DNA of 64,000 nt from Woodsholea maritima DSM 17123 (GTDB taxonomy: Bacteria > Pseudomonadota > Alphaproteobacteria > Caulobacterales > Maricaulaceae): positions 1,059,148-1,123,147 of the forward strand of contig NZ_KB908056.1 of assembly GCF_000382325.1 (NCBI RefSeq), read 5' to 3'. The notes beneath the pieces were generated by a model that made no database searches, had not been told where the DNA came from, and was given only the letters and a program-made list of their open reading frames with translations. The position numbers were made by a program, and so were the translations under genes. Position 1 is the first letter of the stretch. Each line of letters opens with the position of its first letter. Of this stretch, positions 42,400 to 59,106 are shown piece by piece.

Positions 42400-43965
42400 T
42401 CAAACACGCTGCGAGTCGTCCAAAAGATACTTGATTGGTTTTTGAGGAGCGCCAAGTGCGATTGGGGTTGCCAACTCCAATATGTCCAGGAAACTGGTCT
42501 TGCGCTCTGCGCATATACTTATCTGCCCGCGAGCAAGGTCGAACTCTAATCGACCTTTCTCCGGAAAATAGTACGTTGCCTGTTGCTTCCGCTCCGATTC
42601 ATCTAGCGTTCCGCCATATTCCAGTTCAACGTCCTCAAGACGTCGAACAACGGAATCAAAATCTGGACCGCGTCCGCGAATACGGCAGACAACACGATCA
42701 AATTTGATGCCAAAAATTTCGTCGATGTTCTCGAGGTTTTTCTCAGAGCCGTTGCGCACTGACAAACAGCGTATGATTTGAATCTCCGCGGGGTCGTCAG
42801 GTGTTTGCCTAACTTCAATCCAATATCGGAAATGTTCGGTGTCCAATGTGTCGTCACCGGTTCCTATGTCATCCCGCCGCAACCGGAAGACGCGTTTCGC
42901 CTCTTTGTAATAATCCTCGATTTCCTCGGCGATCTCTTCGTCAAGCAGGCCGCGTGCAAATTCTGCGCTGCTCGCATTCACGTTGTCGGGCACGAAGTGT
43001 CCCTTTGCGCGAGAGAAACCCGGCAGTCTGTTATAAGCGCGCGTTTCTATATGGCTGAAAAATATGGCGTCCGGCTTGAACGATAAGCCCGTAAAGTCAT
43101 TTTCGGGCGGAACCGGTTCCTCTTCCTCTCTTACCTGGCATATCGCGAAGCGGTTTGTTGCTGACGTGCGTGCGAGTGGGATCTGCTGTGCCGCTATAGA
43201 CATGTTTTTCGTTATGTACCGGCGGACCGATGTGCCGAGATAATCTCTGAGCGAAGCGTCGGTAATGACTGAATACGCATCAATCGCGTCTGGCGCCTTG
43301 CCGCTTAGCGCATGCACGAGGTGGTACGACCAAACGCCGTGACCAAGCCCGGCATGGCTGTAGGACTTTTGTCCTGGCGTGCAGGACAGGAATACACCCA
43401 CATATTGGTCAACTTTCACGAAATCCTTGAACTCGGTCTCGCTCATAATCGAAACCACGCTGCGGCTGCTAAACTGTTCTTCAAGATCCTCAGCGCAGGC
43501 ATCAATGAATGCAAGGAGCCGGTGGCATTCGCTCTTCTCAACGGGATCAAAAAGTAGGTCGCGCAGATTCAGGCACGTTGCGGACAAATTGTGACCGTTG
43601 CTATCCCAGACGGTGATCAGGTTTGAGATTCCATTGTGGAAGCCGTGTCCAACATAATAGAAAATCAATAGGTCGTCTGGTCCTGTCGCGTGGATCGCCT
43701 CCTTTACACCATCTCGCACGCTCATGTTCGTTGCCATGCTATCGATCAACTCGATGCGGTGTATGTCGTTGTCGGGAAACATTTGATCGAGGGCCGCAGA
43801 GAAAGCGTCGGCGTCGGCCTTGGCATAATCGACACCAGGGATCTGGCCGGTTTTTCGCGGCTGATACTCTTCAATGGCAATAATGACGGCTGTCACGTGT
43901 CCATCGTTCGAGAGAAGGCTTGACGGCTCTTCTGAAACATCTGTTTTTTTGGGTATCTTGGTCAT
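42400..43965 (-). CDS. Caspase-like (C14) protease in a defence operon
   Basis: Protein of 521 aa. Residues about 20-260 are a caspase/metacaspase fold: VTAVIIAIEEYQ opens the first strand, DLLIFYYVGHGFHNG carries catalytic H107, and LLAFIDACAEDLEE carries catalytic C157. The C-terminal half (about 270-521) has no domain I recognise. It overlaps the preceding gene by 4 bp and is last in a four-gene operon, an arrangement suggesting an activated protease effector. Both catalytic residues are present, so it is likely active. Confidence 0.82.
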   Translation of the reverse strand: MTKIPKKTDVSEEPSSLLSNDGHVTAVIIAIEEYQPRKTGQIPGVDYAKADADAFSAALDQMFPDNDIHRIELIDSMATNMSVRDGVKEAIHATGPDDLLIFYYVGHGFHNGISNLITVWDSNGHNLSATCLNLRDLLFDPVEKSECHRLLAFIDACAEDLEEQFSSRSVVSIMSETEFKDFVKVDQYVGVFLSCTPGQKSYSHAGLGHGVWSYHLVHALSGKAPDAIDAYSVITDASLRDYLGTSVRRYITKNMSIAAQQIPLARTSATNRFAICQVREEEEPVPPENDFTGLSFKPDAIFFSHIETRAYNRLPGFSRAKGHFVPDNVNASSAEFARGLLDEEIAEEIEDYYKEAKRVFRLRRDDIGTGDDTLDTEHFRYWIEVRQTPDDPAEIQIIRCLSVRNGSEKNLENIDEIFGIKFDRVVCRIRGRGPDFDSVVRRLEDVELEYGGTLDESERKQQATYYFPEKGRLEFDLARGQISICAERKTSFLDILELATPIALGAPQKPIKYLLDDSQRV

Positions 43966-44846
43966 TCGAAGAAGCTGCTATTGTCTACTTGGAGAGTGAC
44001 ATCATTGGGCTGTATCTCCATCGGTTTCGCCGGATTAGATAAGATCACCGCGTGGTATGGATAGGAGTCGTCCTGGCGAAATCCGATGTCGTTTCGCACA
44101 TCAGAGTTGGAGCCATATTGCAATTCGACCTCAACCTGCCCGGTGATGGCGTATTCGATTTTGGTTGCCGTCAGGGACTTCACTTCGACGGTGTCAATGT
44201 AGTGCCCGTCAACTGTTGTGTGTGTCGATAGCTCATCGAGTTCCTGGATAGTCTCTGAGATTAGGTTCTCGAAGAGGGCGTTGTGCATAACACCGGCGGT
44301 CGCGCGAACAATCTCCTCCCGCCCGGCTGCAGCGGCATGAAGAAGGTCGAGCAGGCTCTCAAATACCTCATGGATCATTTGGCGGACAACAGATCCCTTG
44401 CGTACGATTGTTTCGGAGCGAACATGAGTGGATTTGTTCAGCGCTTCGAAGGCGTCCAAAAGTGGTTTCGTGAAGTCTGTCATCTCAAGCTTGAGCACAT
44501 CTTTGACGAAATCCTCCGGAAGCCCTGCATGGACGATGTAATGTGCCTTTTGACGTCGAGTGACGGTCTTGGTGTCTTTGGCTTGGACAAACCAAACACA
44601 CTCTCGCACGGCGTCGTCCGGCGCGAGACTATGCAGAATGTGGCCGGTGACTTCGCGTAGCCCGCTCGCGACTAGGTTTCCTCTGATCGGATTTTTCTTG
44701 TCTCGGGCGACCCGCATGACTCCTTTGATGAGCTTCATTAAAAACCCATCGTCCGGGAAAAATCCCACTAGGTCGGCTTGCAATTCCGCGATGTCGTTCC
44801 AATCAGTTTTTTGCTTAGCCAATTTAGTTGCGTCTCTTTCGATCAA
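43962..44846 (-). CDS. Protein resembling predicted pPIWI-associated nucleases
   Basis: Protein of 294 aa. The C-terminal part (DELSTHTTVDGHYIDTVEVK; QVEVELQYGSNSDVRND) matches, from memory, a domain annotated as a predicted pPIWI-associating nuclease. The N-terminal ~130 residues resemble a helical module (REVTGHILHSLAPDDAVREC) and are undefined. No obvious catalytic motif can be assigned. It overlaps the caspase gene by 4 bp and is 36 bp after the HEPN-like gene. It may be a sensor or adaptor rather than a nuclease. Confidence 0.62.
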   Translation of the reverse strand: MIERDATKLAKQKTDWNDIAELQADLVGFFPDDGFLMKLIKGVMRVARDKKNPIRGNLVASGLREVTGHILHSLAPDDAVRECVWFVQAKDTKTVTRRQKAHYIVHAGLPEDFVKDVLKLEMTDFTKPLLDAFEALNKSTHVRSETIVRKGSVVRQMIHEVFESLLDLLHAAAAGREEIVRATAGVMHNALFENLISETIQELDELSTHTTVDGHYIDTVEVKSLTATKIEYAITGQVEVELQYGSNSDVRNDIGFRQDDSYPYHAVILSNPAKPMEIQPNDVTLQVDNSSFFE

Positions 44847-44882: not shown

Positions 44883-45494
44883 TCAGTATTTCTCGAAACT
44901 GGGATTGTAAAACTGGTCAGCAAACTCGCCCAGTATTGAGCGAGCTTCTCTTACAGCACTTTGAGCGAGCGGGCTGGCGATGTCGTCTAGTGATCGATCA
45001 GTCGTCGCAATTGCCCCGATGACCCGTAGCAATGTGGCGAAGGACTCTCGAATTAAATCAAGGATGTATGGCTCACACCACAAGTCACCATATTCCCGTT
45101 TTCGCAGTTCGCCGTGCCATCTTGGATTTCGGCTGAACACCAGAGACTTTTCCATTTTGAATGAGACGCCGTGTGCGATGTTGTGACGAATGATGAACCC
45201 GGAACGTGTCGCCTTCGACCAAGTTTGCAGAAAGGTGCGAACATCGTCTTCAGGCACAGTTTCAGCGTACTTTTCCAACATCGAAATCAAGTTGGTTATC
45301 GGTTTTGAGTCTGTTTTTGGACGAATCCCCTTTGGTTCAATTTTCTCTAAGATCCAGATCGCACGCTCAAGGTGGTGTTCAATGTTTCCAGCATGAACGA
45401 TGATAGAGGCGACCTTTGGCGCGGTGACCTCGTCCAGACCAAGCGTTTTGTCCATCAGGGACGCTCGGCCATACTGCTTGGTAGGTTGCTTCAT
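44883..45494 (-). CDS. HEPN-like protein in the defence operon
   Basis: All-helical protein of 203 aa. An R-x4-H motif is present at R103-H108 (IRHNIAHG), the signature of HEPN ribonucleases, and HAGNIEHHLERAIWILEKIE is a typical first HEPN helix. It could be an RNase or an adaptor. It overlaps the nuclease gene upstream by 4 bp (ATGA) and belongs to the same operon. Confidence 0.6.
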   Translation of the reverse strand: MKQPTKQYGRASLMDKTLGLDEVTAPKVASIIVHAGNIEHHLERAIWILEKIEPKGIRPKTDSKPITNLISMLEKYAETVPEDDVRTFLQTWSKATRSGFIIRHNIAHGVSFKMEKSLVFSRNPRWHGELRKREYGDLWCEPYILDLIRESFATLLRVIGAIATTDRSLDDIASPLAQSAVREARSILGEFADQFYNPSFEKY

Positions 45495-46504
45495 GACTTT
45501 GTTGCGCTTCGAGGTGTTGGGTTACCGCCGGGCTTCGGGACGAAGTCGGGCCAGGTATGCGGTTGTTGATGGAGGATGATGTGTACGACCTTCTGTTCTA
45601 AGGCGCGTTCTAGAGCGCGCCGGAAATTGGTCATGTTGCTGACGACCGCGTCGCGTCTAATGGCATGGCGCCAGTTGATTGCTTCGCCTTGCGGTAAGGT
45701 CCAATGCAGGAGGTGTGTCAGCGCCATGTGGCCGAACATCATGCCGTCATCAGTACCGGCGACGAAGCGAAGGTCGATGTGTGTGTCGCTGTGGGATTGC
45801 TGTTCGGATAGATCCCACGTTGTGAAAAGCGTCGTGACGTCCGGGTCTAGATTATCCGCTGTCTCTCCGCCGGAGATCATAAAGCCCACCTCGTCGATCC
45901 TCATTTTCCATTGCTCAGTTACAGTACCTTCGGATTCCTCTCGGTCGACGAGTGCTTCTTTTTTGCAGCGGAAACGCAGACCCGCACCGGAGGCGATCTT
46001 GTAAGCGACGTCGCCTGCAAGGACACCGAGTAGGTTCTCTTTCATGGCGTCGCCGAACGTGATGTTGAAGTTTGTCTGAGCCTTGGTGAGGTGCTGGATT
46101 TCGAAGAGCACCCAGATGCCGTGGTGTTTCCAGGCGATGAGTAGGGGCATCTTGACGAGCTGCGCGTATGCGCGGAGCCGATCAAGATATCGCGGGGTAA
46201 AGGAAAGCGTTTGCTTCGTCTTTGACTTCACTTCGATGAGGACGGGGCCAGAATGTTCAAACTCGGCCAACAAGTCGGGAACTTGATAGAGGTCGCGCGA
46301 GCTTGATGGCGCTTGATGCTGGTCGAGCTTATGAAGGAGACGCGCCTTGCCGAGCCAGCTGCAGATGGCCGTAAACTCGTCTTCGGCGGGCAGGCCTTGG
46401 TCTAGCCGCTTGACCTTGTCAGCGACTTTCTTCGGGTCGTCATCCCAGCCAAGCTCTGAGAGAACCTCTTGAATCAACCGATCGCTATCGTCTGTCTCCG
46501 TCAT
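45491..46504 (-). CDS. PD-(D/E)xK restriction-nuclease-like protein
   Basis: Protein of 337 aa. The nuclease core is visible as P-D77 (YQVPDLLAEFEHSG) then E91-V-K93 (VLIEVKSKTKQTL), the classic D-x13-ExK spacing. The middle and C-terminal parts are not recognised (AHIRRDAVVSN-type region, residues about 250-300). AGGTG precedes the ATG at 46504; upstream ATGs at 46528 and 46522 lie inside the 18-bp inverted repeat. It is first in the operon, transcribed away from abiEi. Confidence 0.72.
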   Translation of the reverse strand: MTETDDSDRLIQEVLSELGWDDDPKKVADKVKRLDQGLPAEDEFTAICSWLGKARLLHKLDQHQAPSSSRDLYQVPDLLAEFEHSGPVLIEVKSKTKQTLSFTPRYLDRLRAYAQLVKMPLLIAWKHHGIWVLFEIQHLTKAQTNFNITFGDAMKENLLGVLAGDVAYKIASGAGLRFRCKKEALVDREESEGTVTEQWKMRIDEVGFMISGGETADNLDPDVTTLFTTWDLSEQQSHSDTHIDLRFVAGTDDGMMFGHMALTHLLHWTLPQGEAINWRHAIRRDAVVSNMTNFRRALERALEQKVVHIILHQQPHTWPDFVPKPGGNPTPRSATKS

Positions 46505-46519
46505 ACACGCACCTAGAAT

Positions 46520-46623
46520 CATATTCATAAATCCGCTTTGAATGCGGAATTAGCCATATTGAGCTTGCCCAAACGGTAATATCATAATAGAAAATCGGTG
46601 TGTAGAGCGGATTTTGGAATATG
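46520..46623. promoter_or_regulatory. Divergent promoter with an 18-bp inverted repeat at both gene starts
   Basis: Plus strand 46606-46623 reads AGCGGATTTTGGAATATG, ending in the abiEi start codon. The minus strand from 46537 to 46520 reads AGCGGATTTATGAATATG, in the start region of the nuclease gene; 16 of 18 bases match. The symmetry suggests one regulator, probably AbiEi itself, acting on both operons. An AT-rich core of about 70 bp separates the copies. Confidence 0.65.
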
Positions 46624-47445
46624 ATACCTCAGCGCACCTCTAGTTTGGCGACCTATGTTGAAGAGCTCGCATCCAGCGGTCGAACCTGTTTCACCCGCGA
46701 GAACGCAGTAGAGGCGTTAGGGGTTAGCCATGGAGCGTTTCTCGATGCGGCCGCGCGCCTCAAAAAGCGGGGTCACATCTTCGCGCCGCGCCGAGGTTTC
46801 TACGTCATTACGCCCACACGGTATTTGAAGTGGGGTGCACCGCCACCAACCTGGTACATCGATGCTATGATGAAGGATGCGGGGCGACCTTACTATGTGG
46901 CGCTCCTGAAAGCCGCGGAGCTCCATGGGGCAGCTCATCAAGCGGTCATGGAGTTCCAGGTCGTCACCGACCGGCAGTGGAAACCCATCCGGGCCGGACG
47001 TTCAAAACTCGCCTTCTATTTCCGCAAGGACATTGAACGGGTCGGACAAGGCGTCGAGCAACGAAAGACCGACACGGGTTCGATGCGGGTGTCGTCGCCA
47101 GCGCTCACCGCGTTGGATTTGATACGCTATCCGCATGCGAGCGGTGGTGTTGATCATGCGGCAAGCGTTCTCAATGAGCTTGCCGCCCATATTGACCCGC
47201 TGCAGTTTGATGCACTGGCGCCGAGCTTTGAGCGGTCTGTCGTCCAACGCCTCGGTTATATTCTCGAGTATCTGGGACATGACGAGATTGCATCCTGCTT
47301 GGAGAAGCATATCCGGAACGGCAATGTGCCATGGGTCGAGCTTGATCCTGGAGAAGCAAATGCAATCACCGCCTACGATGAGCAAGAGCGAAACGCACGC
47401 TGGCACATCATTGTCCGCCGCCCAATTGAGGTTGATGAACAATGA
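46621..47445 (+). CDS. abiEi: AbiEi-type antitoxin (type IV toxin-antitoxin)
   Basis: Protein of 274 aa. An N-terminal winged helix (SGRTCFTRENAVEALGVSHG; LKKRGHIFAPRRGFYVI) is followed by the AbiEi C-terminal antitoxin domain (RPYYVALLKAAELHGAAHQA). AbiEi proteins repress their own promoter and neutralise AbiEii. It overlaps abiEii by 4 bp. A near-copy of its start-site sequence on the divergent operon suggests wider regulation. Confidence 0.85.
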   Translation: MIPQRTSSLATYVEELASSGRTCFTRENAVEALGVSHGAFLDAAARLKKRGHIFAPRRGFYVITPTRYLKWGAPPPTWYIDAMMKDAGRPYYVALLKAAELHGAAHQAVMEFQVVTDRQWKPIRAGRSKLAFYFRKDIERVGQGVEQRKTDTGSMRVSSPALTALDLIRYPHASGGVDHAASVLNELAAHIDPLQFDALAPSFERSVVQRLGYILEYLGHDEIASCLEKHIRNGNVPWVELDPGEANAITAYDEQERNARWHIIVRRPIEVDEQ

Positions 47446-48320
47446 TCCCCGAAACCAACATCACAGCTTGGAGCTTGATCGCGCCATGGGCCGAACCGAG
47501 GCAAGTCGAGCAGGATCTGATTATCTCTCGCGCGCTCGTCGAGATCTTCAATCATGATCTTCTGGGAACTGAACTGAGGTTCCGAGGGGGCACAGCCCTC
47601 AACAAGATCATCTTCCCGGAGCCGTTGCGCTATTCGGAGGATATTGATCTCGTCCGCACAACGGCAGGACCAATCGGCCCCATCCTTGATGCCATGCGAG
47701 ACGTGTTGGAGCCTTGGTTGGGACAAGCGAATTTTGCGTCGAGCCAGGTCGCGCCGAAGCTGCGTTTTCGCGTTCCGGCTGAGGATGATCCCGAAGCGCA
47801 GATCCGGTTAAAGGTAGAGATCAACATCGCTGAGATCGACGCTTTCGACCCGCCGGTTTCGATCCCATACGCTGTCGAGAACCCGTGGTTCACAGGAAAC
47901 ACGACCATCGCATCCTTCTCCCCGGAAGAACTGCTGTCGACAAAACTGCGTGCCTTGTTGCAACGCGACAAAGGGCGCGATCTTTTTGATCTCGACCATG
48001 CGTTAGATGCGCTTCCCGAACTCAATCTCGATCGGGTTGTTGAGTTGTTTGTCCGATATCTTGACCAACAGGGTCAGGCTATCTCGCGGGCAGAGGCTGA
48101 GCAGCGGATGCTGGCGAAGTTCGCACGCCCGGATTTGCTCGGGGATATTCGCGCATTGCTGACCCCTGATCGTGCAGAATCGCTGGATGCCGCTGCCGGT
48201 CGAGCAGCGTTTCTCAGGGTATTCACAAATGTGATTGCTTTAATCCCCGGGGATAGGTGGGCACGTACTGATGAACTGGCTGAGACCTTGGGTTTGCTTG
48301 AAATCAGTGGGGTGAACTGA
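47442..48320 (+). CDS. abiEii: AbiEii-type nucleotidyltransferase toxin
   Basis: Toxin of 292 aa of the DUF1814 nucleotidyltransferase family. The catalytic motif is FRGGTALNKIIF followed by YSEDIDLVRT (the D-x-D), with KLRALLQRDKGRDLFDLDHA downstream. It is expected to modify tRNA or another nucleotide target and halt growth after phage attack. The ATG overlaps the antitoxin stop. The next gene is 49 bp downstream on the same strand. Confidence 0.87.
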   Translation: MIPETNITAWSLIAPWAEPRQVEQDLIISRALVEIFNHDLLGTELRFRGGTALNKIIFPEPLRYSEDIDLVRTTAGPIGPILDAMRDVLEPWLGQANFASSQVAPKLRFRVPAEDDPEAQIRLKVEINIAEIDAFDPPVSIPYAVENPWFTGNTTIASFSPEELLSTKLRALLQRDKGRDLFDLDHALDALPELNLDRVVELFVRYLDQQGQAISRAEAEQRMLAKFARPDLLGDIRALLTPDRAESLDAAAGRAAFLRVFTNVIALIPGDRWARTDELAETLGLLEISGVN

Positions 48321-48369: not shown

Positions 48370-50136
48370 ATGAACCAAGCTGAGTTTGCGCGAATATTTT
48401 GCGAGCGCCCCGAAAGCTTCGCATGGTTTCTTGGGGCGGGCGCGTCGCGTAATGCGAATCTTCCGACTGCGGAAGATATCATCACAGACTTGAAGCGACG
48501 GTATTATTGCAGTGAAGAAAACCAAAACTTCTCAACAAAAGATCTACAGAACGACGCGGTAAGGGCGCAAATTGAAGGCTATTTGCGTTCACGCGGATTT
48601 CCAGAGCGCTGGTCTTCCGAAGAATACACGACATATTTTGAGACGATTTTCGGCGAAGATCGCGAGCGTCAGCGGAACTATATCTCTAGTATTCTGTCAG
48701 AAGACCGTGTCAGGTTAGCAGTAGGAAACCGCGTTTTTGGCGCTTTGTTGGCGGGCGGATTGTGCCGCATGGCGTTCACGACCAATTTTGACCCGGTTGT
48801 CGAAAAGGCCGTTGCGGAAATATCCGGGAAGCCTTTGTCAGCCTATCACCTTGAGGGCGCTCACAACGTTGTATCGGCGCTCAACAACGAGCAGTTCCCT
48901 ATCTACTGCAAACTGCATGGAGATTTTCAGTACGACAGCATCAAAAATCTGTCGTCAGATTTGGCAACACAGAACGCTCAGCTGTCCCAATGCATGACAA
49001 TGGCGGGGGCGCGGTTCGGCTTTGTGGTCGCCGGATACTCTGGCCGAGACGAGAGCGTGATGGCTCTGTTCGACGCCATATTGAAAGCACCCAACCCGTT
49101 TCCACACGGACTCTACTGGATGAAGATGCGGGGCTCGACGCCGATTGACAGCGTCGCATCGCTTATGGAGAGCGCGAAGGCTGCCGGGGTTCGCGCAGAG
49201 TTCGTGGACATTGAGACTTACGACACAGTTATGCTTCGGTTGTGGCGCAATCTTCCCAATCAGCCAGATGGCATGGATGCGAAGGTACGAAAAGGGCGAG
49301 CGGGGATTGTTCAAATCTCGGTGCCGGAACCGAAGGGTGGTAAGCCACTTCTGCGGTTCAATGGTCTGCCAATGACCAAAGTCCCAACGACATGCGCCGA
49401 GGTAAAGTCAAAGACCGCCTCAAACTGGGAAGCGATTGCAGACTTAAAGCGAAAGCCGGAAACAAGTGCGGTTCTCACATTTGATGGCAAGGCCCTGGCC
49501 TGGGGTGGGCAGCAGGACATAGAAGACACATTTGGTGCAGACTTTCTTGAGAAGAGTGAAGTAACGTTCGATCCCGACTGGCGAGCGGGCTCACGGCTTC
49601 ACATTAAGAACTTTCTCGAAGAGGGACTGGCGCGGGCGATCTGCCGGGTGCGGCCGCTCCTTCAGCGGCGGCAGGGGTCGGGGGTCTCTTTGATCGTTGA
49701 TCATAAAGCGCTGGATGTTGGCATCCTGGAGGATTTGCACCGCGAGACCGGCAAGGTGACCGGATCCGTGCCGGGTCTGTCCCTACCGGCTACTGAGGAG
49801 CATGAGGCAGTTCACCAAGTTCACTTCGCTGAGGCGGTGCATATGTCGCTTGGCTATGCGGACAATCGGCTTTGGCTGCTTCTGAAACCTGATGTCTGGA
49901 TATGGCCAAGATTTGCGCGGCAGCATGCAACGAACTTTTTGGACAAGCGTAAGGCTGACCGACGCAATGACAAACATGATCGGTTGCTTTCGGCTTGGAT
50001 CGGAATCCTATCGGACCATGCGGGCAGAGATGTCGAAGTGACCTTCTCGCCGTTTGATGGCGATACGGGATTTGCAAACCCAGTATTCGGATTCTCGACG
50101 CAGACAGGTTTTGCGATGAAGAGGGGCAGGACATGA
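48370..50136 (+). CDS. SIR2-APAZ protein of a SPARSA short-Argonaute system
   Basis: Protein of 588 aa. The N-terminal SIR2 NADase has GAGAS (residues 22-26), TTNFD (137-141), KLHGDF with catalytic-type H183, and [11 protein letters not shown]. The C-terminal half (about residues 310-588) fits an APAZ domain by position and by its partner, which substitutes for the missing N/PAZ parts of the short Argonaute. It starts at the second ATG with AGGA upstream. The stop overlaps the pAgo start by 4 bp. In known SPARSA systems guide-bound target DNA triggers NAD+ depletion and cell death. Confidence 0.87.
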
Positions 50137-51569
50137 CTGATGCGCTTCCGGCATATTCAATCGCTCCAGAACCAGAGCTAATTTTTCATGGTGGTCGGAC
50201 GGACCGGCACCCTCTGCGCGGTCTCATAAATCACGGCCCCTTCAGTCTCAGGTTCGGGGCACCTTCGGTGGTTCGGTTCGCTGTTGTTGCTCCACAAGCC
50301 GACTTAGCGCGGATCGATGGGTTGGTCCGGGAACTGGGCTCACCGGCGAAGCCGAAAGAGGCGCCGGCCTATTATCCTGAGTATCCAGGCTTCGAAGAGC
50401 TCATGCGCACGCCGATTGCTGATGTTGATGACGCGATGCGTTTTGCGCTGCCCGATGAGTTGGATCAGCTTGCGGCTGCGCGCGATAAGATGGGCTTGGC
50501 GCGGGCTTTGTTGAACGAGGTGATCAAGCTCCGTGCAGATCGTCAAAGGTTTGATGTCGCGCTAGTTTACTTGCCACGCGCTTGGAGCGATTGTTTTGAG
50601 GGTGAAAGCTTCAACCTTCATCACTTCATCAAAGCTTATTGCGCGCCGACCGGTATTCCGATCCAGATATTGAATCAGGAAAGCTTCGATCGATCGTGCA
50701 GGGCCAATGTGATGTGGGGTTTGTCTGTTGCGCTATTTGCCAAAGCCCGTGGCGAGCCTTGGAAACTGACGGGGCTTGATCCCCAGGAAGCCTTTATTGG
50801 CATCAGCTACGCGACACGCCGAAAAAATGACGGCAGCGGCCAAGAATACACGACCTGTTGCAGCCAGGTGTTTGATCCTGATGGAACGGGATTTCAGTTT
50901 GTGGCCTACGATGCCAAGGAGTTCACTGAGGATCGCCGTCACAATCCGTATCTTTCGTATTTCGAGATGCAGTCGGTTCTGGCGAAGAGCCTGCATGTCT
51001 ATCAATCGGGCCATGTCGGTCGGACGCCCAAGAAAATTACGATCCACAAAAACACCGAATTCAAAGAGGAGGAGATTGAAGCGGCGCTCGATAGCTTCAA
51101 TGAGGGTACGGAGGTCGAACTGGTGCAGATCGTCCAATCTACCGATTGGACGGGTTTACGATATACTCCTGGAAAGCCGGCACAGTACGGCAATCCTGCT
51201 GAGAAGCCCAAGCCCTACAATTACCCAGTCGAACGGGGCACTTACGTGCCAGTCTCGTCGTCTGAGGCCCTCGCTTGGTCGCAAGGTAGTGTTCTAGGCG
51301 TTCAACTGCAAAATTCACGCTACAACGTCTACAAGGAGGGTGCTCTCAAACCAACGCCGTCGCCACTCTTGCTGCGCCGCTTCTCTGGAGATGGCGGCTG
51401 GCATGAAACTGTCAGCGGTATCCTCGCGCTGACCAAAATGGATTGGAACAACAATACACTCTATAAGAAACTGCCGGTGACGATGGTGTATTCGGGCCGT
51501 TTCGCAGAGATCATTCAGCAAAACCCTGAGCTTGTCGACCAAGTGTTCGATTTCCGGTGCTTCATGTGA
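50133..51569 (+). CDS. Short prokaryotic Argonaute (MID-PIWI) of SPARSA
   Basis: Protein of 478 aa, about the size of the Geobacter SPARSA Argonaute. It lacks N and PAZ domains; the MID ([33 protein letters not shown]) and PIWI ([35 protein letters not shown]) regions are present. The DEDX catalytic residues are not all evident, as in other short pAgos, which are inactive guides. It is coupled to the SIR2-APAZ gene by a 4-bp overlap and ends 80 bp before the integrase. Confidence 0.87.
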
Positions 51570-51648: not shown

Positions 51649-52974
51649 TCACTGCGTTAATGGTTTCGCTTCGATCAGCATGTCGTTGATTGCGCTCCGT
51701 CGTGTCTGTCGATCAAGCGTGTATGTGTTTCGCCTGAATTCCACCCCTTCGAGAAGCGCCTTCACGTAGCCCGACACAGTGTCGGCGGCCATGATCAAGG
51801 TCGAGTCCAGCGTGTGGACGTACTTGCTCGTGACCGAGCCTTTGGCGTGCCCTATGAGCGCGGCAATGGTGATTTCGGTGAAGCCAAGATCGTTAGCGAT
51901 GCTTGCGAAGCTGTGCCGCAGAACGTGGGGCGTCACATCCCAAAGCGGCGTGTCGGTGAAGAGCTTCTTCCAGCTCTGGGGGAAGTTTCCGACGGCGTTG
52001 TCCTCGCCCTGGCCGGGAAAGACGAACGTCCCATCCCGTTGAAGGCGGGCGGCTTCAAGATAATCGATGACCGGAAGACCGACGGGGCGAACAGATGCGC
52101 CTTCCTTGCTGTCCTTCATTCGAAGGCAGCTGCCCTCGATATCAACTTCACTCCACCGCAGACCGATGATTTCGCCACGCCTGCAGCCGGTCAAAGCGAT
52201 GAGGCGGAGGATCTCTGCGTGGATTCCATAATGGCTGTCATTCTGGACTTCCTTTAGGATGCCGCCCAGCGTCCGGTACTCGGCTTCGCTCAGGCGCCTG
52301 TCACGCACCTTGTATCGCGGCTTCTTCAGGCCGTGCGTCGGGTTCTGATCGATGATCCCCGCCTCGATCCCGTAGGTGAAGATGCCGCCGAGAAGGCCCA
52401 TGGTGCGGATGGCCGTGCCGCGGCCGCCGCGCACGATCGCCTTGCCGCGCAGTTTCTCGGTTTTCATCACGACACGCGTCTTCCCGGCAATGATATCCTT
52501 CATGAGGTTGTTCATGTCGGGCTTTGTGATGTCCTTTATCCTCCGCGTACCGAGCAAAGGGATGATGTGCCGGCGGATACGGCCGACATCGGTCGCGACC
52601 GTGGTGGCCTTCTTGGGGCGGCCACCTTTCCCGAGAACGAGACCTGCTTCCATATCGGCGATGTACTGCTCGCACAGTTCCCGAACGGTCACCGCGCGAC
52701 GCTCTTCCTCCCGCTCGGCTGCGGGATCATCGCCCTGGGCGACGTCACCCAATCGGACTTTCGCCTCGCGGCGGGCAGTTTCCGGGGTCCACACTCCGTG
52801 CAACCCGATCGCATAGCGGCGTGACCGTCCTCGAGCGCGATACTGAATGACGTAGCTTCGCTTGCCTGACGGAAAGACCCGAAGTCCAAAGCCGGGCAGT
52901 TCATCGTCCCAGATGATGTAGTCCTTGGTCTGCGGCTCGGCGCCGTCTACGGTTCGTTTCGTGATCTTCGCCAT
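51649..52974 (-). CDS. int: Tyrosine recombinase, ICE integrase
   Basis: P4/ICE-type integrase of 441 aa. The arm-binding domain DUF4102 (IWDDELPGFGLRVFPSGKRS) precedes the catalytic domain: Arg in LTGCRRGEIIGLRW, HVLRHSFASIAND, LIGHAKGSVTSKYVH with nucleophile Tyr. Start at 52974; the open frame to 53097 is not used. It reads away from the att repeat at 53155-53202, i.e. the gene lies just inside the element's right end. Confidence 0.93.
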   Translation of the reverse strand: MAKITKRTVDGAEPQTKDYIIWDDELPGFGLRVFPSGKRSYVIQYRARGRSRRYAIGLHGVWTPETARREAKVRLGDVAQGDDPAAEREEERRAVTVRELCEQYIADMEAGLVLGKGGRPKKATTVATDVGRIRRHIIPLLGTRRIKDITKPDMNNLMKDIIAGKTRVVMKTEKLRGKAIVRGGRGTAIRTMGLLGGIFTYGIEAGIIDQNPTHGLKKPRYKVRDRRLSEAEYRTLGGILKEVQNDSHYGIHAEILRLIALTGCRRGEIIGLRWSEVDIEGSCLRMKDSKEGASVRPVGLPVIDYLEAARLQRDGTFVFPGQGEDNAVGNFPQSWKKLFTDTPLWDVTPHVLRHSFASIANDLGFTEITIAALIGHAKGSVTSKYVHTLDSTLIMAADTVSGYVKALLEGVEFRRNTYTLDRQTRRSAINDMLIEAKPLTQ

Positions 52975-53154
52975 CGTCTCGGTCCCTGTCGGACCCGGAT
53001 TTCGCGTAAGCACCACGTAAGCACTTGGGAGCAAATTCCGGGGTTGTCGCGGGATAGAGTCTTCGGAGCGTCGATTTAGAAAGTCTATGAAAAACAATGT
53101 TTTATCGTGCTCTGGCGTACCCTATCGTGCAATTCGGATAGGCTCTTAAACCAG

Positions 53155-57801: not shown

Positions 57802-59106
57802 TTAACTTTGGCCTCTGAGGGGAACGACATTGCTCTCTTTGGTGTTTTCATTGTGGACGATATTTAAGAGCCACTGTCCCCAAGCTTCTAAGGCTTGTCT
57901 TTTCTGGGGCAGGTAGTCGTTCTTGTCATATGTGCGCGTTAGCTTGTTCCCCACTGCGTGGTTCAATACGGCTTCGCCAATATCGAAGGGCATGGCGATC
58001 TTCTCTGGGTGGGTTATGGTTGTCCGGCCTGTGCGCCTTAGATCGTGTACAGTTAGGCCGATGATCCCGAGGGCTTCGCAGTCCCGCGCAAAGGCCCGGG
58101 TGAGGGCGTCGCGTCTGATCGTGCCTCCAAAGCGTCCTTGGAAAGGTCCGATGCTGAGCTTCCCGGTTTTGTCTCTGGCCTCTGTGAGGATCTTCACAGC
58201 GGCTTTTGAGAGAGGGACGACTGCACTGCGTCTTTCTTTCTTGCGTTCGCGGGCGATGTTCCAGGTCGTCTCGGTTAGGTCGATCTCATCCCAACACATT
58301 CCAGCCACCTCATCTCCGCGTTGAAGGGTTAGGGCTGCAATCTGTAAGGCTGAGGCGCTGGGCCATCCTTGCTGCCTGCCTTTGTTCTTTCGGTGTTCCC
58401 AGTGGAGCCAGAGCTTACGAAGTTCTTCATCGGTTGCTATGCGCTCGCGGCTCTCTTCTTTATATTTCTTGATGTCTCTAGCTTTGTTGGTCTCGATCCA
58501 TTCTCTTTCCACCCCGTGGTTCAGGACTTGGCGTATGTATTTCAGGCAATCATTGGCTGCTGCATTCCCGTTCTTACCCTGGGTGCTTGCGCTGCGTCTG
58601 ATGGCTTCGAGGGCTTCGGTGACCGTCGAGCGTTTAATGTCTTCGACAGCTATCTTTCCAAGATTTGGGAGGATGTTCTTCGAGAGGTGTTGCTTCTCCT
58701 TGGCTAAGGTGCTCAGGGCTTTCTCACGGCGCTGCTCAGAATAAGTTAAATAGGCTTCTGCAAGCGCCTCAAAGCTTCTCGCTCTCTTTATCTCGCCTTG
58801 GGTCTTTTGATTCCGGCGTTCTTGAACGGGGTCCATGCCTTCGCTTTGAACCTCTGAGCGCTTACGTGCCGCGAGTTGTCGCGCTTCGAGCGGGATTAAG
58901 CCGGGGTATTCGCCAAGGACGGCTTCTGAGTTCTTACCGTCGCGGGTTACATATCGCACGCCGAAGGTCTTCTTACCGCTTGGTCGCACCATGAGATAGA
59001 AGCCTGATTGGTCGGCATCGTTAATCCGGTACTGCTTGTCTTCTGGCTTGGCCTCCTCGACAGCGCGGTTTGTCAGTCTAATTTTTCGCGTGGCCGTCCG
59101 GGGCAT
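57802..59106 (-). CDS. int: Tyrosine recombinase, integrase of the small island
   Basis: P4-type integrase of 434 aa. DUF4102 arm domain (YRINDADQSGFYLMVRPSGK), central SAM-like domain, catalytic domain with LQRGDEVAGMCW (Arg), TVHDLRRTGRTTI, and LNHAVGNKLTRTYDKNDY (Tyr). It is different from the ICE integrase but uses the same att site. Its 5' end faces the right att copy across a stretch with arm-type repeats. Confidence 0.92.
   Translation of the reverse strand: MPRTATRKIRLTNRAVEEAKPEDKQYRINDADQSGFYLMVRPSGKKTFGVRYVTRDGKNSEAVLGEYPGLIPLEARQLAARKRSEVQSEGMDPVQERRNQKTQGEIKRARSFEALAEAYLTYSEQRREKALSTLAKEKQHLSKNILPNLGKIAVEDIKRSTVTEALEAIRRSASTQGKNGNAAANDCLKYIRQVLNHGVEREWIETNKARDIKKYKEESRERIATDEELRKLWLHWEHRKNKGRQQGWPSASALQIAALTLQRGDEVAGMCWDEIDLTETTWNIARERKKERRSAVVPLSKAAVKILTEARDKTGKLSIGPFQGRFGGTIRRDALTRAFARDCEALGIIGLTVHDLRRTGRTTITHPEKIAMPFDIGEAVLNHAVGNKLTRTYDKNDYLPQKRQALEAWGQWLLNIVHNENTKESNVVPLRGQS

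Follow-up and report, generated by a model that had tools for sequence, protein, structure and literature searches.

Two predicted AbiEi operators between the abiE operon and a divergent nuclease–caspase operon of Woodsholea maritima, with likely reach over the neighbouring genes

We analysed a 64-kb stretch of Woodsholea maritima DNA (the window) in which the antitoxin–toxin operon abiE lies divergent from an operon that encodes a predicted nuclease, a predicted pPIWI-associated nuclease (pnuc) and a caspase-like protease (Table 1). Two near-identical 18-bp sequences in the region between these operons are, judged from sequence, the strong outer halves of two separate predicted AbiEi operators, a distal one (O1) and a proximal one (O2). 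We propose, with a probability of roughly 0.8, that O1 and O2 form an operator pair for the autoregulation of abiE and that O1 does not belong to the neighbouring operon, yet AbiEi most likely represses that operon too. The first-pass annotation of this DNA had read the two sequences as a single inverted repeat serving both operons; its observation is upheld and its interpretation proves half right.

Table 1 Genes, predicted operators and predicted promoter in the analysed part of the window
Feature	Position	Strand	Remarks
Caspase-like protease	42400-43965	-	PF00656 E=6.3e-10
pP_pnuc, predicted pPIWI-associated nuclease	43962-44846	-	PF18165/PF18166; Aga_Nuclease E=9e-104
203-aa gene, no family found	44883-45494	-	
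Hjc-like predicted nuclease, first gene of divergent operon	45491-46504	-	PF01870 E=9.9e-5, just above cut-off
O1, distal AbiEi operator (predicted)	46520-46560		41-bp palindrome 18+5+18; centre 46540, -81 from abiEi ATG
IR1, strong outer half of O1 (the minus copy)	46520-46537	-	half-site score 21.6
IR2, weak inner half of O1	46543-46560	+	half-site score 10.8
Predicted abiE promoter, TTGAGC-18-CATAAT	46559-46588	+	9/12 consensus positions; 0.4 expected by chance
O2, proximal AbiEi operator (predicted)	46583-46623		41-bp palindrome; centre 46603, -18 from abiEi ATG
IR3, weak inner half of O2	46583-46600	-	half-site score 10.9
IR4, strong outer half of O2, ends in abiEi ATG (the plus copy)	46606-46623	+	half-site score 22.0
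abiEi, antitoxin and predicted repressor	46621-47445	+	AbiEi_1 E=4.9e-26, AbiEi_4 E=8.3e-6
abiEii, nucleotidyltransferase toxin	47442-48320	+	AbiEii E=1.2e-34
SIR2 protein and short pAgo	48370-51569	+	PADLOC Aga_SIR2, pAgo_I; ATG 48370, 49 bp after abiEii

The two copies had been placed exactly, and the mismatch count given for them is correct: the plus copy at 46606-46623 (AGCGGATTTTGGAATATG) and the minus copy at 46537-46520 (AGCGGATTTATGAATATG) differ at 2 of 18 bases. The inverted pair extends beyond 18 bp, with 18 of 20 positions identical between 46518-46537 and 46606-46625 and 68 nt separating the arms. These repeats are real and not a product of chance. An inverted 18-mer pair with at most two mismatches appeared in none of 150 dinucleotide shuffles of 46400-46760, and a weaker control that permitted three mismatches gave at least two matches to the masked pattern in 13 of 100 whole-window shuffles. 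Across the 3.1-Mb W. maritima genome, exact matches to the masked pattern occur at these two places only, the next best place having two mismatches. The copies had also been said to end at the starts of their genes, which holds for one of them: the plus copy ends in the abiEi ATG (46621), whereas the minus copy stops 15 bp short of the nuclease start at 46504. That conserved start matches the RefSeq annotation of the A. tumefaciens plasmid pAtK224b (90.3% identical here) and is also supported by homologue ORFs beginning MTGTD at two further loci (L033 and L034); the in-frame ATGs within the repeat are not the start. A single shared inverted repeat is rejected, since each arm pairs with a weaker half-site of its own and the copies thus belong to separate palindromes.

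Sites were scored with an 18-bp half-site model trained on 72 abiEi upstream regions, the window's clade excluded (consensus nGCGGATATTtCAACATG), in which two half-sites 5 bp apart make up a 41-bp palindrome. O1 scores 32.5 and O2 32.9, against 9.6 for the best of 1,700 shuffled upstream regions and only 2.8 for the third-best place in the entire window; that shuffle maximum (mononucleotide shuffles, 20 per region for 85 regions) was taken as the threshold. A separately built profile, R1, derived from 42 proximal operators (six from the window's clade, the window itself excluded), returned O1 at E=5.8e-7 and O2 at E=8.6e-7 in the window. A profile search of the W. maritima genome, with 150 of 1,423 first-look candidates scored, gave the O1 and O2 places E values of 2.9e-5 and 4.3e-5 and the next place 0.35; the latter is a weak AbiEi-like site elsewhere in the genome (G000:C7:64176-64204, 13.2 bits).

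Both operators are interleaved with the predicted abiE promoter. The final two bases of IR2 fall in the -35 box called by the promoter scan, and the first six bases of IR3 coincide with the predicted -10 box, CATAAT. In 13 of 13 rows of the window's clade the -10 box reads CATAAT or CATATT, and in 7 of 13 the -35 box reads TTGAGC or TTGAAC. The winged helix of AbiEi would read CATGTTGAAAAATCCGC-type half-sites. Because O2 spans the predicted -10 box together with the start codon of abiEi and O1 reaches the -35 box, we infer that AbiEi represses its own operon; the site prediction is well supported, and repression of the antitoxin–toxin operon through O1 and O2 is very probable. The centres of O1 and O2 are 63 bp apart, close to six helical turns, which would set the two sites on the same face of the DNA.

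The proposed repressor has the hallmarks of an AbiEi protein: AbiEi Pfam domains, a two-domain fold and an AbiEii partner gene, with which abiEi overlaps by 4 bp in what the gene positions indicate to be a bicistronic arrangement. A sequence search of solved structures returned no AbiEi homologue up to E=1, so a fold comparison was needed. The AlphaFold2 model (pLDDT 89.6) comprises a winged-helix N-terminal domain, with its elements in the published order H1-S1-H2-H3-S2-S3, and an AbiEi-type C-terminal domain. It matches Rv2827c best (1ZEL; Z 15.8 over 255 residues) and, after that, S. agalactiae AbiEi (6Y8Q; Z 11.8 over 188 residues). The predicted recognition helix covers residues 37-49 and carries Asp42.

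We then placed the two sites among the upstream regions of AbiEi relatives, drawn from genome contigs (80 of 174 loci), plasmid records (11 of 68) and order-level genomes. Two loci were excluded from the model and the scans, L045 with its N-terminus missing and L113 with 54 bp upstream; 88 of the 90 regions are distinct over 120 bp (L010 duplicates L037, and L076 and L077 are alike). The order-level loci L011 and L012 were scored separately, and L013-L022 stood outside the scoring, among them L016-L021 (37-38% identical) and L013, L014 and L015, which correspond to L044, L068 and L108. Counts are from a free scan of -300 to +60; an earlier scan had used fixed ranges of -24 to -14 and -90 to -70. 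A proximal palindrome is present in 89 of the 90 regions, centred at -18 in 87 and at -21 in two; the exception is L083, whose start is mis-set and whose only site lies at -89. A second palindrome occurs in 53 regions, and none reaches the threshold in 36. The centres of the two palindromes are 61-63 bp apart in 48 of these 53 regions (62 bp in 31, 63 in 11 and 61 in six), the others being 56 bp (two), 67, 66 and 45 bp (one each). When stretches were drawn at random from these loci, 3 of 2,639 draws reached the threshold, all at one place in L067. A strong AbiEi-type palindrome (35.7) sits there, at ~2.1-2.6 kb and apart from the abiEi gene analysed; it perhaps belongs to a second abiE copy.

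Palindromes of this kind precede AbiEi genes in contigs whose labels name four phyla, some of these contigs being metagenome bins. More distant relatives depart from the pattern: L016-L018 and L020 carry, by eye, a different repeat (GTATC/GATAC), and no palindrome of this type was found for a Legionella homologue (35% identical). Mean half scores over the 53 distal-site regions, taken from the fixed-range scan, were 15.8 for the distal outer half, 8.2 for the distal inner, 18.1 for the proximal inner and 17.8 for the proximal outer; strong outer halves at both operators are a trait of the window's clade. Repeats left by recombination or transposon ends, or plain coincidence, could be imagined in a region that is a mosaic island with exchangeable flanks, but the distance to the abiEi ATG is fixed in very different contexts and no shuffle recreated the pair, and we give such an origin next to no probability. 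For a large group of AbiEi proteins, the survey thus defines the operator concretely by its sequence, its fixed positions and a spacing of 61-63 bp. As a separate observation, in the 76 regions outside the window's clade the proximal palindrome holds sigma-70 boxes (at least 9/12) in 45, a raw count without chance control; the commonest match is TTGAAA-17-GATAAT, with the ATG near the expected +1, suggesting a leaderless antitoxin mRNA.

In one AbiEi clade, of 11 rows, the operator core differs from the usual TCCGC and is mostly TGGAC-like. Among the rows that keep the usual core, 78 of 78 have Asp at residue 42 (76 of 76 before L039, a one-base variant, and L083, both D42, were moved by hand from the TGGAC class); of the 11 switched rows, ten have Lys and one has Ala at this residue. 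The distal core is also altered in 8 of the 11 switched loci, identically in two, by eye. Residue 42 lies within the model helix 37-49, the recognition helix by the published AbiEi order. The switched rows form a single group and represent one evolutionary event, not 11, and the Fisher p-value is therefore not independent evidence; further residues, some in the C-terminal domain, likewise separate the two core classes, as expected for a clade. The co-change of core and residue 42 links AbiEi to both predicted operators and makes Asp/Lys 42 a candidate specificity residue.

AbiEi had been named as the likely binder, and this proposal gains from the palindromes upstream of AbiEi genes, from their co-variation with the recognition helix and from the Rv2827c-like layout of the predicted sites. 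Some other regulator, such as a host factor or a protein encoded by the divergent operon, could bind the palindromes instead, given that AbiEi binding here is a prediction. We regard this as highly improbable: the sites track abiEi across differing neighbours, co-vary with the AbiEi helix and are absent at all five nuclease genes with no abiE seen nearby.

The pair had further been understood as a divergent-promoter device, an idea that the genes on the left of abiE contradict. Of 44 regions whose left gene is divergent, 28 have a distal site, as do 20 of 36 whose left gene is codirectional (P = 0.50; ten regions had no called left gene), where left-gene calls come from an ORF heuristic on mostly unannotated contigs and the orientation of some rows is unsure. 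After thinning at 90% AbiEi identity (70 AbiEi), the counts were 20 of 33 and 16 of 30 (P = 0.62), this test re-using scores and orientations from the fixed-range scan. The distal site is retained at annotated plasmid loci (L025, L027 and L028) whose left gene, Fic or virB11 for instance, is codirectional, and 7 of 10 RefSeq-annotated plasmid loci without the nuclease have it (L024-L028 and L116-L120). Retention of the distal operator because of a divergent gene is thus rejected by the orientation counts. As the distal site is just as frequent beside codirectional genes, O1 belongs to the control of abiE itself, and nothing in its distribution shows selection for control of a divergent operon. 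The possibility that the copies are one inverted pair that evolved to mark and co-regulate both operons draws on the near-identity of the outer halves, which flank the intergenic region, and on nuclease relatives divergent from abiE in L023, L035, L036 (partial) and L037; given a palindromic partner for each copy, the same distal site beside codirectional genes and a minus copy that lies away from the nuclease start codon, it is improbable.

That AbiEi may repress the nuclease-pnuc-caspase operon is suggested by where the operators lie. The start codons of the two operons are separated by 116 bp, of which O1 and O2 occupy 79, leaving free gaps of 15 and 22 bp. These gaps are shorter than the ~29 bp of a -35/-10 core, so a promoter of the nuclease operon within this interval could not avoid overlapping an AbiEi site, and a promoter placed further back would have to fire through both operators. 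This geometry makes repression likely, and we infer from position that AbiEi probably represses this operon too. Such repression would be a by-product of operator position, maybe retained because it is useful. The competing view, that O1 and O2 control abiE only and that the divergent operon is transcribed independently, from an unblocked promoter or from starts outside the intergenic region, has in its favour the equal frequency of distal sites beside codirectional genes, including the three annotated plasmid loci, and the promoter scans, which cover one promoter type and gave no match on the minus strand. It is at odds with the scant room that the operators leave for a promoter core and with the recurrence of a divergent pnuc-caspase pair at a second abiE lineage. 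Distal scores within the window's clade also speak against it, being higher with the nuclease (32.5, 25.8, 31.3, 30.6 and 12.0) than without it (21.1, 19.9, 13.1, 22.8, -0.4, 5.2, 22.6 and 9.0; P = 0.03), in a test that re-used the fixed-range scores and orientations and whose rows are not independent, four of the five nuclease-bearing members being close relatives. On this evidence we consider control of abiE alone somewhat unlikely.

The divergent genes recur beside abiE in whole or in part. L023 is the only abiE-bearing relative in which the full set of four left genes was found, within flanks of at most 6 kb (9 kb for L023); three of them (nuclease, 203-aa gene and pnuc) occur in L035, two (nuclease and 203-aa gene) in L037, and part of the nuclease in L036. 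In the second lineage (L103, Pacificimonas), whose AbiEi is 52% identical, pnuc (89% identical) and caspase (87%) are directly divergent from abiE, and the distal half-site contains the first ATG of the pnuc ORF. Beyond the caspase, the island resembles the window's, so L103 and the window are not fully independent. At 13 pnuc loci from 58 plasmid records, an AbiEi-like gene is divergent in four: in L023 the divergence runs through the nuclease operon, and in L123, L124 and L135 the gene encodes an AbiEi_4-bearing DUF6088 protein. With 259 records, DUF6088 occurs very often on such plasmids, so its adjacency to pnuc may be chance and carries little weight. The other nine loci (pnuc at most 45% identical) have no divergent AbiEi-like gene; in one of them, L129, an AbiEi gene lies ~1.7 kb downstream of pnuc on the same strand. 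Among genomes, the search for pnuc neighbours returned the window's own genome only of 385 in its class and 0/1, 0/96 and 0/5 in other orders, and no relative was confirmed in the viral contigs searched.

The three DUF6088 loci also offer observations in their own right. In L135 (2243-4700), a DUF6088 regulator without an annotated AbiEii beside it is divergent from pnuc and a Lit-like protease, and a palindrome (TGTCAGAAAA / TTTTTCTGACA) lies between the DUF6088 and pnuc genes, as it does in L123 and L124. In the latter two (L123:3977-5700 and L124:3980-5526), pnuc is closely trailed by a Lit-type peptidase (Peptidase_U49) that replaces the caspase of the window. Our reading of pnuc with a Lit-type peptidase alongside pnuc with a caspase is that of a putative nuclease with an exchangeable protease.

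On the other side of abiE, the SIR2 protein and short pAgo form a pair that we take to be SPARSA-like. The interval between abiEii and the SIR2 gene contains no terminator or promoter match, and the pair may ride on the AbiEi-controlled transcript. The order of abiE followed by SIR2/short-pAgo is repeated in L038, L039 and L040 at 92-97% protein identity. To the right of the defence genes lie integrase genes at 51649-53097 (Pfam) and 57802-59106 (by look only). The left flank varies as well: GajA of Gabija replaces the nuclease operon as divergent neighbour of abiE in L038 (3757-5760) and L043 (3784-5787), and the left ORF of L040 is probably GajA, judged by equal ORF length and gap alone.

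A wider conjecture, which we hold to be unlikely as things stand, is that AbiEi serves defence islands as a portable control hub, with both operators travelling in the abiE cassette. A defence module landing to the left of abiE would then fall under O1. Such modules would include nuclease-pnuc-caspase in the window and L023, the nuclease with pnuc in L035, pnuc-caspase in L103 and probably GajA in L038, L040 and L043, where it lies further from O1; downstream modules, such as SIR2/short-pAgo in the window and L038-L040, would ride on the abiE transcript. If this were true, an antitoxin lost or drawn away during infection would release the toxin and both flanking defences together. The narrower proposal has consequences of its own: should the divergent operon be repressed through O1 as well, the antitoxin of a type IV system would couple its toxin to nuclease/caspase and Argonaute-type defences that are unrelated to it, and a defence island could be co-ordinated by simple means. 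We found no report in the open-access literature of AbiEi or another antitoxin beside, or divergent from, defence genes, which is not proof of absence.

The closest known counterpart is the Rv2827c-Rv2826c promoter of M. tuberculosis, where the antitoxin binds four 23-bp repeats in two pairs, at most 131 bp from the start, with 13 bp between the members of a pair and 4 bp between pairs (PMC7319586). By arithmetic from these figures the pair centres are 63 bp apart, and the outer repeats bind tightest (0.0205 and 0.121 uM versus 0.862 and 11.0; PMC7319586). In the window, likewise, four predicted half-sites form two palindromes no more than about 131 bp from the start, the centres are spaced by the same 63 bp and the outer repeats are the strongest; Rv2827c is also the best fold match of the window's AbiEi. 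The two differ in half-site length (23 bp there, 18 bp here) and in the gap between halves (13 versus 5 bp); binding is a measurement for Rv2827c and a prediction for the window, and the passages available from that report describe no divergent defence operon (PMC7319586). S. agalactiae AbiEi represses its own transcription through one inverted-repeat pair over the promoter, with the transcription start 26 bp before the ATG (PMC3985639). It resembles the window in having repeats over the promoter and a start close to the one predicted here, and differs in its single pair, against two in the window, and in its sequence (PMC3985639). Control beyond its own operon has a precedent in the AbiEi of the S. 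suis element ICESsuHN105, which binds and represses a second toxin–antitoxin operon, SezAT, and also binds oriT (PMC11062541). In that element, as described, the target is a type II toxin–antitoxin promoter elsewhere in the element (PMC11062541), whereas in the window it would be a divergent nuclease/caspase operon that shares the operator.
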